Notes under the pieces: generated by a model | The model's database searches: none | Told to the model about the DNA's origin: nothing | The model's input: the letters and a program-made list of their open reading frames with translations, nothing else | Translations under genes and position numbers: made by a program | Source: an uncultured Clostridia bacterium | GTDB lineage: Bacteria; Bacillota; Clostridia; Christensenellales; UBA1242 | Assembly (NCBI GenBank): GCA_944363385.1 | Contig: CALVUB010000053.1 | Coordinates: 1-5,748, forward strand | Length of the DNA: 5,748 nt | Direction of reading: 5' to 3' | Shown here: positions 2,256 to 5,622 of the stretch, piece by piece | Position numbering within the stretch: the first letter of the stretch is position 1 | How the letters are laid out: each line of letters starts with the position of its first letter

Positions 2256-3287
2256 TTATTTAAGTTTCTTTCCACATTCTGGACAGAATTTTGCATTTGG
2301 TTTGACTTCGCTTCCGCATTCTGGACAGGTAAGCGCAAGTCTTTCACCACACTCTGGGCAGAATTTTGCACGAGCTGAAACTTGAGCGTTGCAACTTGGA
2401 CAAACTCTTCCTGCATGCTGATTTTGCTTTTGAGTGCTTGCCATGTTTTGCATGTTGTTTGCAAAGATGTTTCCAAGTCCCATGCCCATGCCAAGTCCCA
2501 TGCCTGCGCCCATTGTTCCGCCTGCCTGACCTGGATTTTTTGCAGCTTCTTTCATCGCCTCAAGGGTCTCAACTTGAGTGTAAACATCAATGTTTCCACG
2601 AAGCATTCCAAGGCTTGTGTTTTTGTCGAGTGCTTTTTCAAGCTCTTCTGGAAGAGAGAAACTTTCAAACACAAAATTTGTAAGTTTGATGCCAATTGCC
2701 TTAAACTCTTCAGCAACTTTTGCTTCCACCATTTTTGAAAGTTCTTGAAGGTTTGCTGCCATATCAAGAACGGAGATTTTGCTTTCGCCGATTGCGTCAG
2801 AAATTCCGCTCAGCACCATGCTTCTAAGATAATCAGTGATTTGCGAAGCATTGTAACTTGCAAGTGTTCCGCTTAAGTTTTTCATAAATTCGTAAGCATC
2901 GTCAACTTTGAAAGCGTAGTTGCCAAATCCGCGTATGCGCACTGCGCCATAGTCTTTGTCGCGAACAATAATTGGATTGACTGTTCCCCACTTTTGATTT
3001 GTAAATTGTTTTGTGTTGACAAAATAGATGTCTGACTTGAAAGGTGTTTCAAATCCATATTTCCAAGACATAAGTTTTGTCAAAATTGGAAGATTGTCGG
3101 TGTCAAGTTTGTAAAATCCTGGCAAAAAGACATCGGCAAGTCTGCCTTTGTCAACAAAAATTGCCACTTGGCTTTCTCTGACAGTAAGAGCTGAACCTTT
3201 GTTTACATGGTCTTTGCTGATTGGATATTTATAGACAATAAGGTCACTGCCTGTGTCTGTCCATTCAATGTTCTTTAAAATTCCCAT
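2256..3287 (-). CDS. SPFH/band-7 domain protein with tandem C-terminal zinc ribbons (YdjI-like)
   Basis: A 343-residue protein. Residues about 25-245 match the SPFH (band 7) fold of the YdjI / virion-core-protein-like type, including VNPIIVRDKDYGAVRIRGFG and a later helical stretch (MAANLQELSKMVEAKVAEEF). There is no N-terminal membrane helix, so it is probably a peripheral cytoplasmic protein that oligomerises on partners. A flexible Gly/Met-rich linker (about 253-282, with GMGLGMGMGLG) leads to two zinc ribbons, C296/C299/C310/C313 and C321/C324/C335/C338, which are near-copies of each other (both contain KFCPECG). In B. subtilis the homologue YdjI helps recruit PspA during envelope stress; that is family knowledge. 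It is the first gene of a four-gene operon, with AGGAG at 3294-3298 six bases before the ATG and a promoter about 30 bases upstream. No pspA-like gene is visible in this window. Confidence 0.92.
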   Translation of the reverse strand: MGILKNIEWTDTGSDLIVYKYPISKDHVNKGSALTVRESQVAIFVDKGRLADVFLPGFYKLDTDNLPILTKLMSWKYGFETPFKSDIYFVNTKQFTNQKWGTVNPIIVRDKDYGAVRIRGFGNYAFKVDDAYEFMKNLSGTLASYNASQITDYLRSMVLSGISDAIGESKISVLDMAANLQELSKMVEAKVAEEFKAIGIKLTNFVFESFSLPEELEKALDKNTSLGMLRGNIDVYTQVETLEAMKEAAKNPGQAGGTMGAGMGLGMGMGLGNIFANNMQNMASTQKQNQHAGRVCPSCNAQVSARAKFCPECGERLALTCPECGSEVKPNAKFCPECGKKLK

Positions 3288-3316: not shown

Positions 3317-3345
3317 ATTTTAACATATTAAGTTTTTTATTGCAA
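3317..3345 (-). promoter_or_regulatory. Probable sigma-A promoter of the SPFH operon
   Basis: Read on the minus strand: TTGCAA (3340-3345), a 17-base spacer, then TAAAAT (3317-3322), preceded by TGT, an extended -10. The -35 matches TTGACA at four of six positions and the -10 matches TATAAT at five of six. The expected start is near 3310, giving a leader of about 20 bases before the ATG at 3287. It lies between the dnaJ terminator and the SPFH gene, where a new transcription unit should begin. No CIRCE-type heat-shock operator is seen next to it. Confidence 0.65.
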
Positions 3346-3376: not shown

Positions 3377-3483
3377 AAAAAAAGGCTTATGAGCGCTGAA
3401 AATTCTTTCAGCAAGGGCAAAAAATTTTTTGCCCTAAAAAAATGAAAAATGGAATCCATTTTTCACTTTTTTGCTCATAAGCC
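3377..3483 (-). terminator. Branched intrinsic terminator of the dnaJ unit
   Basis: Starting two bases after the dnaJ TAG stop, the minus strand reads GGCTTATGAGC (plus 3473-3483), three internal hairpins, then GCTCATAAGCC (plus 3384-3394) and seven Ts (plus 3377-3383). An 11-bp stem followed directly by a T run is the form of a Rho-independent terminator, but the loop is replaced by about 78 bases of further hairpins. On the plus strand no comparable T run follows the stem directly, so the direction is dnaJ-side termination. Confidence 0.7.
3384..3483. repeat. 100-base cloverleaf-forming inverted-repeat element
   Basis: Four perfect or near-perfect stems pack into one four-way junction. The outer stem is 3384-3394 with 3473-3483 (11 bp). 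Hairpin 1 is 3395-3401 with 3406-3412 (7 bp, loop ATTC) and abuts the outer stem. Hairpin 2 is a 22-base perfect palindrome at 3414-3435 with A6T6 at its centre and GGGC/GCCC arms. Hairpin 3 is 3443-3452 with 3456-3465 (10 bp, loop AAT), extended by six A-T pairs (3436-3441 with 3467-3472) across one mismatch, and it abuts the outer stem. Only A3413 is left unpaired at the junction. There is no coding potential and no transposase. It could be a structured terminator, a small non-autonomous mobile element with 11-base terminal inverted repeats, or a structured RNA. Confidence 0.7.
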
Positions 3484-3485
3484 AC

Positions 3486-4610
3486 CTATTTTTTCATCTT
3501 TTTCAAGAAATTGTTGTATTTTGTATAGTCATTGTCGTTATAGCCACTAGCAAGTTGCTCAAGAAGCGCTTTACTGTTTTTGCTGAGCGACTTTGGACAT
3601 TCTGCCTTTATCGTGATAAGCAAATCACCATATCTGTCTTTGTTGAGAACTTTGACGCCTCGTCCTTTAAGCCTCATCATTGTTCCACTTGGCGTAAGAT
3701 CAGGAATGGTCAAGCTATAGTTTCCATTAAGAGTTGGCACATCGACTTTGCCACCTAAAAGAGTTGTCGTGAAAGGCAGATAAAGATCCATATACAAATC
3801 ATTGCCCTTTCTTGTCAAAATTGGATGACTTGCAACGGTGATATGCACATTTAGGTCGCCATTTATGCCTTCCTTAAGTGGAGCATTGCCTTCACCTCTC
3901 ATTCTCAAGGTCTGTCCATTGTCAATTCCTGCAGGCACTTTGATGGTGATGGTCTTTTGAGTGCGTTTATAACCCTTTCCAGAGCAAGCTTCACATTTTT
4001 CTCTGACAATTTTGCCTGTTCCTTCACACTTTGGACAAACACTTTCTCTTATTGTTGTGCCAAAGAGAGTGTTTTGCTGAAAACGAACTCGCCCAGTGCC
4101 TTGACAAGAAGTGCAAGTGGTAAATTCTCTGCCATTTTTTGCGCCTGTTCCATTACAGCTAGAACATTTGTCAATCTTGCCAATAGTCACCGTCTTTTCA
4201 GCGCCAAAGCAAGCCTCTTCAAAAGACAAATTCATTGAAATGTCGATATCTTCACCTTTTTGCAAAGTTTGCCTTCCACTTCGGCTTCCACCAAAAGCAG
4301 AAAAAATGTCTGAAAAGATATCAGAAAAGCCACCGCCTCCGCCAAAGAAATCTTCAAAGCCACCTTGCGCGCCACCAGCGCCAAAAGGATTGCCTTCGGC
4401 AGAACCAAACTGGTCATAGTTTGCCCTTTTCTTTGGGTCGCCAAGCACTTCGTATGCTTCATTTATTTCTTTAAACTTGTTTGCGGCTTCTTCTGTTTTA
4501 TTAAGGTCTGGGTGATATTTTTTTGCAAGCCTTCGGTAAGCAGATTTGATTTCGTCTTCGCTTGCCCCTTTGTCCACCCCAAGAATTGAATAATAATCTT
4601 TATTTGCCAT
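3486..4610 (-). CDS. dnaJ: Chaperone protein DnaJ (type I Hsp40)
   Basis: A 374-residue co-chaperone that binds unfolded protein and stimulates the ATPase of DnaK. The J domain spans about 2-68 with the HPD motif at 33-35. A Gly/Phe-rich region (about 69-115) carries two successive DIF motifs. The zinc-binding domain has all four CxxCxGxG repeats, beginning at C149, C166, C192 and C206, so both zinc sites are complete. The C-terminal substrate-binding and dimerisation region is full length (about 215-374). The start chosen is ATG at 4610, giving [11 protein letters not shown] as in DnaJ proteins generally. An in-frame ATG at 4655 would add 15 residues that lie inside the upstream gene and is rejected. 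AAGGA at 4616-4620 is the binding site. The first 11 bases overlap the upstream metallopeptidase gene, so translation is probably coupled. Confidence 0.98.
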
Positions 4611-5622
4611 AATTTTCCTTTTTATTTTCAATTGCTTTTGAAATCTCATTAGCAATTTCTATATAGTTCTCTTCAAAAGTTTTATTGTCTCGCATATGTT
4701 CTTCTAGTTTATCAGCAACTGCAATTAAAATATCTTTTGAATAACCATGCTTTGCATGCATTTCAAAAAACCAATCTAGATTTTTTGAGTGCTGCCTTAT
4801 AAAACTAAGTTGAATTGCTCGAATCACATACTCACATATAATAGAAAAACGGTCAGAATATGCGTTTTTTGCAAGCAAATCGCGCCCTTTTTTAGTTAAT
4901 TGAGGTTTATCAATTTCATTCCAATATTTTTCTGTCAATGGATTGACAAATGAGTGAGAAAATTCGTGTAAAAAGAAAGATTTTTCACCAGTACTATTAT
5001 ATCCCCAAATATTATCGACATTGCCCTCTTTGTCGCCCATTTTGCTCATAGTGCAAAAGATGTTGTTTCCATTAAAATAGCCATAGCCACCATTTGTCAA
5101 TAATAACGCCAGATTTACAGTAAACTGTTTTTCATCAACATTCATTTTCAGCTTTTTCATAAAGGATATAACTTCATCAAGATCAAAACACGAATTAAAT
5201 GAATCAACTTCCTGCTGATAATAATCTTTATGTTGCTGGAAGAATTCTTCGAAATTTGATTCCCTTGCCATAGCTTTCAATTCTTTGAGAAAATCTAAAA
5301 CCAGTTTTGATTTTTTTAACCTATTTGCAAAAGGATATTCATTTTGTCCATGAAAGTTCCACTCCTCATCAACGAATAGCATAAGTTGAACAGGTGCGTC
5401 ATAAGAAAATGAAAGCTTTTCAATAACCTCATTTAACAATTTTATTGCTTTATGGTTTTTAAATTTGGAGAAATATTTGTTAACCTCTTCAAGATATGGG
5501 TAATTTTTTAAATCGCTAACCAAATGATAAAACTTATCATGATAATCAGAAAGTCTTAAACAAATCCCCAACATTTCTATTCTTTTATCAATTTTGACAC
5601 TTACTTTTTCCGTTTCTGCCAT
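4600..5622 (-). CDS. Putative zinc metallopeptidase, DUF4932-like
   Basis: A 340-residue protein with a gluzincin-type zinc site: [14 protein letters not shown] places His219, catalytic Glu220 and His223, and Glu264 in [10 protein letters not shown] is a good candidate for the third ligand. The [10 protein letters not shown] signature and the downstream E-x-x-x-RA match my memory of the DUF4932 family, whose substrate is unknown. There is no signal peptide or membrane segment, so it is probably cytoplasmic. The N-terminal half is helical and charged. The ATG at 5622 is preceded by only a weak AAGAG; a strong GGGAGGAG at 5645-5652 is 22 bases away, too far to serve it. The gene lies between probable dnaK and dnaJ and overlaps dnaJ by 11 bases. 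Its DNA is poorer in G+C than dnaJ (15-17 per 60 in three sampled rows against 24-27). Role in protein quality control is inference from location. Confidence 0.85.
4605..4624 (-). repeat. Direct repeat copy 2, over the dnaJ start codon
   Basis: This 20-base segment includes the dnaJ ribosome binding site, ATG and GCA codon. It matches 5617-5637, over the start of the metallopeptidase gene, at every position except one extra base in that copy. Both copies have the same orientation and sit at the same functional position, bracketing the 340-codon gene. Confidence 0.65.
4616..4620 (-). promoter_or_regulatory. dnaJ ribosome binding site inside the upstream gene
   Basis: AAGGA on the minus strand, five bases before the dnaJ ATG at 4610. 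It lies wholly within the last codons of the metallopeptidase gene, whose stop codon (4600-4602) is inside dnaJ. It fixes the dnaJ start and makes coupling between the two genes likely. Confidence 0.75.

Follow-up and report, generated by a model that had tools for sequence, protein, structure and literature searches.

What is a stretch of 100 bases, predicted to fold as a fully paired four-way cloverleaf and placed directly behind a dnaJ gene, for: does it act as DNA, as RNA, or is it the trace of a mobile element? The structure lies at positions 3384-3483 of a stretch of 5,748 nucleotides (here, 'the window' denotes the whole of this stretch) from an uncultured Clostridia bacterium, referred to as G000, the assembly of which comprises 764,228 bases in 99 contigs and is 73% complete; the closest named record as judged by DnaJ is CALVMU010000003.1, an uncultured Clostridia bin, with 99% identity. 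An earlier note had offered three roles for the structure, namely a processed RNA 3' end, a protein-binding cruciform, or a small mobile element with terminal inverted repeats. The dnaJ gene (3486-4610, minus strand; Pfam DnaJ, DnaJ_CXXCXGXG and DnaJ_C) carries the element at its 3' end and is followed, on the same strand, by a gene (2256-3287; Pfam Band_7_1) whose SPFH/Band 7 product has zinc ribbons. In the remaining gap towards the SPFH gene, a consensus scan marked a promoter-like site (3317-3345, minus strand; 9 of 12 matches); the scan returned 31 such sites in the window versus 14.2 in shuffles. Further out, a 362-residue protein (1156-2244) with a TFIIB-like zinc ribbon (27.9 bits, Pfam cut-off 29) adjoins the SPFH gene, and a DUF4932 protein of 340 residues (4600-5622) is encoded upstream of dnaJ, its gene sharing 11 bases with the start of dnaJ.

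Read in the sense of dnaJ, that is, on the minus strand, the predicted fold consists of an outer arm of 11 bases, a hairpin of 17 pairs, a hairpin of 9, one unpaired base, a hairpin of 7, the second outer arm of 11 bases and TTTTTTT. The 5' arm of the outer stem (3473-3483) starts 2 nt past the dnaJ stop codon (3486-3488) and pairs with the 3' arm (3384-3394). The first hairpin (3436-3472) has 17 continuous pairs including one G.U, which on the plus strand appear as 6+10 bp, and is terminator-like by itself due to a T-tract at its base; the second (3414-3435) is a perfect palindrome, AGGGCAAAAAATTTTTTGCCCT, of 11 bp on paper and of 9 bp with a 4-base loop when folded; the third (3395-3412) has 7 bp and a loop of 4. 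The sole unpaired base at the four-way junction is position 3413 (A3413 on the plus strand), and the T7 right behind the outer stem (3377-3383) is a predicted terminator U-tract. The earlier note had thus placed the arms and the unpaired base correctly and had given the right lengths for the outer stem and the 7-bp hairpin, while its hairpin of 10-11 bp folds with 9 bp and its hairpin of 10+6 bp is continuous on the dnaJ strand; neither the T7 nor the recurrence of the topology elsewhere with unrelated sequence, described below, had been part of it.

Folded as plus-strand RNA, the element reaches -52 kcal/mol versus a shuffle mean of -19.5 (z -9.3), and none of 200 shuffles was as good, which bears out the earlier statement that chance does not easily yield such a layout. 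Folding as DNA gives z -9.2, in agreement with the view that either nucleic acid could adopt the structure. The minus-strand transcript, which the earlier note had proposed to fold, gives z -7.9 with slightly different flanks from those of the plus-strand run, and in a direct comparison the dnaJ-sense fold is slightly better (-53.9 vs -50.5) because one A.C mismatch in the long, 17-pair hairpin becomes G.U. With respect to intrinsic termination, the dnaJ element (i) has a stable stem at the 3' end, (ii) has a T-tract directly after it, and (iii) departs from a single unbranched hairpin with a short loop in that three hairpins lie within the outer stem. The outer stem is not among the terminators from a consensus scan of the window, which marks the hairpin at 3436-3472 as terminator-like on the plus strand only.

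In order to follow the element into relatives, we used the SPFH gene to mark the orthologous gap. A protein search with it matched 39 of 112 genomes of the genus, and 30 loci were read out, in six of which (G000, G028, G094, G117, G099 and G083) dnaJ is directly upstream of the SPFH gene. In G088 and G084 the locus breaks off within 200 bases upstream of the SPFH gene, which places both outside this judgement, and G114 was left out as a dnaJ/SPFH locus since its HPD motif belongs to another protein. Five of the six gaps contain the cloverleaf, whereas the sixth, that of G083, holds a plain hairpin of 12 bp that leads into T6. The copy in G028 differs from the window element by a single base, the one in G094 is identical at 83 of 97 ungapped positions, and those in G117 and G099 at 52 and 51 of 79, respectively. 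The 300 bases preceding the element show similar identity (232 of 291 in G094, 224 of 295 in G117), and the element therefore changes about as fast as its neighbours with its pairing kept.

Pair-by-pair comparison of the window and G094 copies locates this change. When read by hand in a loop-anchored register, four pairs are changed on both sides (three in the first hairpin, one in the third) and one on a single side, and the first hairpin loses the pair that closes its loop; a helix alignment yields 39 pairs that are the same, one double change, one one-sided change and eight pair insertions, and both counts are confined to pairs formed in each fold. Either count points to covariation of the stems in homologues. 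As a control, random substitutions were introduced into three copies, and the cloverleaf was kept in 0 of 1000 cases for the window copy (22 changes), in 1 of 1000 for the dnaJ copy of G117 (18 changes) and in 2 of 1000 for a copy from a second site, named C below (20 changes). The predicted structure is far beyond chance, and its shape is kept in relatives.

The sequence itself shows no sign of having spread. Within the window's own genome, which is 73% complete as assembled, the search gave one full-length place and no second copy. Searches of 61 genomes (best 14 candidates or fewer each) and of the 112 genus genomes (best 8 or fewer each) gave full-length matches only in G000, G028 and G094, and the remaining matches were short and without a cloverleaf fold. 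The outer-arm pattern had no match in viral contigs, a 301-base query had none in phages, and plasmids gave no match to the element. The earlier note had named a second copy and covarying homologues with conserved stems as the evidence to look for; the former was not found, the latter were, and the element came through on their account. These findings make it very unlikely that the cloverleaves are small mobile elements of one family whose outer arms serve as terminal inverted repeats: the full-length type is confined to three genomes among the candidates considered, phages, plasmids and viral contigs yielded nothing, and the element is inherited with changed letters at fixed sites. What speaks for mobility is a dispersed 82-bp repeat of the genus (ACTATGTGATG...CATCACATAGT), which also folds as a three-hairpin cloverleaf and occupies one of the sites, C, in the outgroup genome G088. 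This repeat is found, for example, at L195:12121-12202, at L193:1717-1797 (in G028) and in L303-L322, has matches with E of 0.01 or better, some of them weak, in 61 of the 112 genus genomes with up to 22 per genome, and frequently forms tandem arrays with a spacing of about 135-150 bp, another conserved segment lying between the copies. Being a separate repeat conserved in sequence, it was left out as a member of what follows, except that the census of gaps given below counts it at C in G088.

Is the dnaJ element then one of a kind? A strict scan of 20-kb stretches for outer arms of at least 8 bp closing at least two hairpins of at least 6 bp identified three-hairpin junctions in G028 (5 in 400 kb), G117 (3 in 390 kb) and G099 (2 in 400 kb), that is, ten cloverleaves in 1.19 Mb from three close relatives, with the dnaJ copies making up three of the ten. 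The scan detected no three-hairpin junction in G083 (392 kb), in five further genomes of the genus (400 kb) or in five representatives of other families (319 kb), so that these eleven non-close genomes contribute none in 1.11 Mb, and one shuffle of every scanned stretch likewise contained none. The same scan gave seven two-hairpin junctions versus three in shuffles, and none with four hairpins. A looser scan of G028 and G117 found 12 junctions with three or more hairpins, including one inside an open reading frame and one copy of the 82-bp repeat, versus two in shuffles. A scan confined to intergenic sequence returned ten, of which eight belong to the strict ten and two are related to the dispersed repeat, with none in shuffles and none in other genomes. 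The window element is thus one of a class which, as far as sampled, is found in a small group of related Clostridia and in which an outer stem of about 8-14 bp (the smallest searched being 7 bp) closes exactly three hairpins. Arm sequences differ between sites and, for the most part, between species as well, and BLAST between elements of different sites yields short matches only.

Eight sites were compared across genomes. In addition to the dnaJ 3' end (site A), these are the leader of glnS (tRNA-synt_1c), where the element lies between a TATAGT-like -10 box, recognised by eye, and the ribosome-binding site (B); the gap between convergent tyrosine recombinase and RNase Y genes (C); that between convergent recA and penicillin-binding protein genes (D); that between a GDPD gene and lepA (E); a convergent gap after a short-chain dehydrogenase gene (F); the leader of a GLUG-repeat protein, G028 being the only genome examined (G); and the gap between an SMC/AAA gene and ruvC (H). 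Six sites are gene 3' ends, at which outgroups carry plain terminators, and two (B and G) look like 5' leaders. Three of the eight (C, D and H; L215, L201 and L195) flank tyrosine recombinase, RecA and RuvC genes, and one of these also flanks an RNase Y gene; this may be due to chance. At site H (L342; L195:2589-2749), the outer 5' arm has, as judged by eye, a second possible partner in the opening part of the first hairpin (GGCGC...GCGCC), immediately ahead of T6-T8, and this alternative pairing would form a terminator that excludes the cloverleaf, in a switch-like manner.

For the census of these gaps, genomes were grouped by SPFH identity into close genomes, in which the protein is at least 90% identical to that of the window (G000, G028, G094, G117 and G099), and outgroups (G083 with 84%, G095 with 85%, G088 and G106). 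A relaxed detector applied to 47 gaps found 29 three-hairpin junctions, one two-hairpin junction and 17 gaps with none, and, applied to 940 shuffles, found 16, 66 and two junctions with three, two and four hairpins, respectively. In the close genomes, 27 of 31 gaps have a three-hairpin junction; since the sites were chosen because at least one genome has the element, eight of the 27 reflect ascertainment, and 19 of 23 remain without them. Four gaps of the close genomes were negative, namely D in G099 and D, E and H in G117; at H the fold does have three hairpins, and it was an interruption in the outer arm that escaped the detector. In the outgroups, 2 of 16 gaps were positive, namely F in G095 and C in G088, the latter being the dispersed repeat. 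Under a stricter rule, 4 of 18 elements fail, by our reading one each for an extra end base, a 5-bp hairpin, the paired fraction and branching inside a hairpin. At A in G099 the census detector took a longer alternative, the 82-base element itself being found in the strict scan, and the stems at site B are too different for pair-by-pair reading, so that shape alone was compared there. Taken together, the same shape is predicted with changed letters in close relatives at dnaJ and at least six other gene boundaries.

Which molecule is then kept in shape? Where one strand has a G.U pair, its complement has an A.C mismatch, and wobbles therefore hint at the strand that is maintained. We used 26 elements, with A in G028 and G099 (near-identical), C in G088 (the repeat) and H in G117 (undetected) dropped. 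At the sites having one gene direction (A, B, E, G and H), internal wobbles are 13 on the sense versus 3 on the antisense strand (two-sided binomial 0.02, for related copies that are non-independent and with 11 of the 16 positions at site H); without site H the count is 5 to 0, which is not significant (0.06), and at the convergent sites it is 4 versus 2. Overall, G.U pairs make up 3.9% of the pairs on the sense and 1.2% on the antisense strand in the 78 hairpins of these elements, compared with 9.0% in plain terminators, for which 114 of 1315 candidate hairpins were selected on the sense strand (17 in shuffles). Nearly pure Watson-Crick pairing on both strands would also suit a DNA structure, that is, a branched cruciform, or a fold of single-stranded DNA during replication, whose four-way shape is read by a junction-binding protein. 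Such a DNA-level element, in line with which are also its placement at gene boundaries whatever the gene direction, convergent gaps included, the tyrosine recombinase, recA and ruvC neighbours of sites C, D and H, and inner T-tracts that could halt RNA synthesis before the fold is complete, appears to us rather doubtful: wobbles lean towards the gene-sense strand, outgroups carry ordinary terminators, an RNA function, at 3' sites, and extrusion of branched structures from duplex DNA is slow.

The ordinary terminators deserve closer attention. In the outgroup genome G083 a plain terminator is present at A, C, E, F and H. A T-tract follows the outer stem at site C and in four of the five copies at A (window, G028, G117 and G099), and is missing after the outer arm of several elements (A in G094, sites E and H). 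An inner hairpin bears a terminator-like T-tract ahead of the outer 3' arm in the window copy, whose first hairpin runs out into T7 ahead of the remaining structure, and at sites D and F; at D in G028, a plain terminator is, by eye, already present after recA. At site F, the stem of the G083 terminator (ACTCATAA...) has its counterpart in the cloverleaves of G117 and G095, where it matches hairpin three, and the old terminator hairpin therefore seems to have become one arm. At site A, it is the outer stem with its T-tract that, by eye, looks like the plain G083 terminator. Both sites suggest growth in place, and not insertion of a ready-made unit. It could then be argued that the elements are elaborate intrinsic terminators and nothing else, with selection acting on termination and with the extra hairpins and the outer stem as tolerated baggage, left by successive inverted duplications about an ancestral terminator hairpin and refined through template switching. 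The terminator hairpin recognisable within the site F elements, the T-tracts behind the outer stem at A and C, and a published proposal that clusters of adjacent hairpins act as terminators (PMC8355165) fit this reading. However, the strict scan, open to any number of hairpins from two upwards, returned ten three-hairpin junctions and no four-hairpin one, B and G resemble 5' leaders, and the outer stem is kept even where no T-tract comes after it. We consider this reading unlikely.

We favour, at a probability of about one half, an RNA cloverleaf that would cap transcripts and that, at dnaJ, would act as terminator and 3' end, with shape maintained over sequence. An RNA 3' end is favoured because of the position of the element, the plain terminator at the same place in G083, the T7, and the 13:3 excess of sense wobbles; of the three roles originally suggested, the processed RNA 3' end is accordingly the best supported, its function being our inference. 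The acting molecule would be the sense RNA of the gene. At dnaJ, the outer stem and T7 would end transcription, and the compact, loop-poor cloverleaf would block 3' exonucleases and slow decay of the dnaJ message in the manner of a blunt cap, while at sites B (glnS) and G the element would protect or tune the 5' end of the message. As the letters are free and the shape is fixed, recognition, if any, would go by shape. Several observations count against the RNA reading: if an inner T-tract stops the polymerase, the RNA never holds the whole cloverleaf; some elements lack a T-tract behind the outer arm; recA at site D in G028 already has its plain terminator; the sense bias draws on 16 positions, mostly at site H; and the scarcity of G.U pairs on both strands would, as mentioned above, suit a DNA structure as well. 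The window element (spacer and stop codon at 3484-3488) and those at L183:10943 and L195:2589 start 0-2 nt past a stop codon; a terminating ribosome would therefore cover the outer arm, and folding may be coupled to translation.

It is tempting to go further, and tentatively to propose a new class of nucleic-acid element whose only defining trait is its topology, namely a four-way junction, perfectly paired, that encloses three hairpins and no other number. The sequence would be free, the shape would be what is recognised, perhaps by a protein that binds junctions, and the elements would sit at both ends of messages, 5' and 3', within a single bacterial group, some of them next to recA, ruvC, recombinase and RNase Y genes. 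Terminators and mRNA caps are usually found via a stem with a T-tract or via conserved sequence, and a class kept solely by shape would escape both types of search. The many unrelated sequences with natural four-way junctions would also constitute a test set for enzymes that read shape, in RNA or DNA, and for the growth of plain terminators into branched structures.

How does the element relate to what is already described? The earlier note had named no known element with this layout, and none emerged here: Rfam 15 has no match to the window at E of 1 or better; across 120 kb with sites B, D, E, F, G and H its matches are seven tRNAs and one L10 leader, none of them at the elements; and for 14 loci nothing reached the gathering score over an element, the sub-threshold overlaps being mir-316 on F in G000 (32.2 vs 80 bits) and GEBRO on H in G000 (19.4 vs 284.7 bits). 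Among the open-licence papers listed by literature searches, no title or abstract opening described a fully paired four-way layout. The cloverleaf at the 5' end of enterovirus RNA is likewise a four-way RNA at a transcript end, but is viral and has conserved protein-binding loops, and no relation is claimed. The dnaJ element resembles an intrinsic terminator in its place at a gene 3' end and its strong stem followed by T7, with G083 having a plain terminator at the same site; it differs in that three abutting hairpins replace the loop, that some members lack the outer T-tract, and that two look like parts of 5' leaders. In another member of the Clostridia, Ruminiclostridium cellulolyticum, intergenic stem-loops of the cip-cel (cellulosome) operon are reported to stabilise both ends of processed transcripts (PMC10311766), which is a precedent for the RNA reading, whereas the abstract of that work speaks of stem-loops and not of a four-way shape. 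AT-rich, terminator-like stem-loops of low-GC Firmicutes (PMC1590033) share the A-rich 5' and T-rich 3' tracts, the position behind the stop codon and a possible bidirectional use, but are stem-loops, and the word 'branched' does not appear there. Finally, the hairpin clusters of PMC8355165 likewise comprise several short consecutive hairpins after a stop codon, contiguous hairpins being defined there as less than 15 bases apart; in its main text, the terms 'nested', 'branched' and 'multi-loop' do not occur, whereas in the elements described here an outer stem closes the hairpins into a four-way junction.
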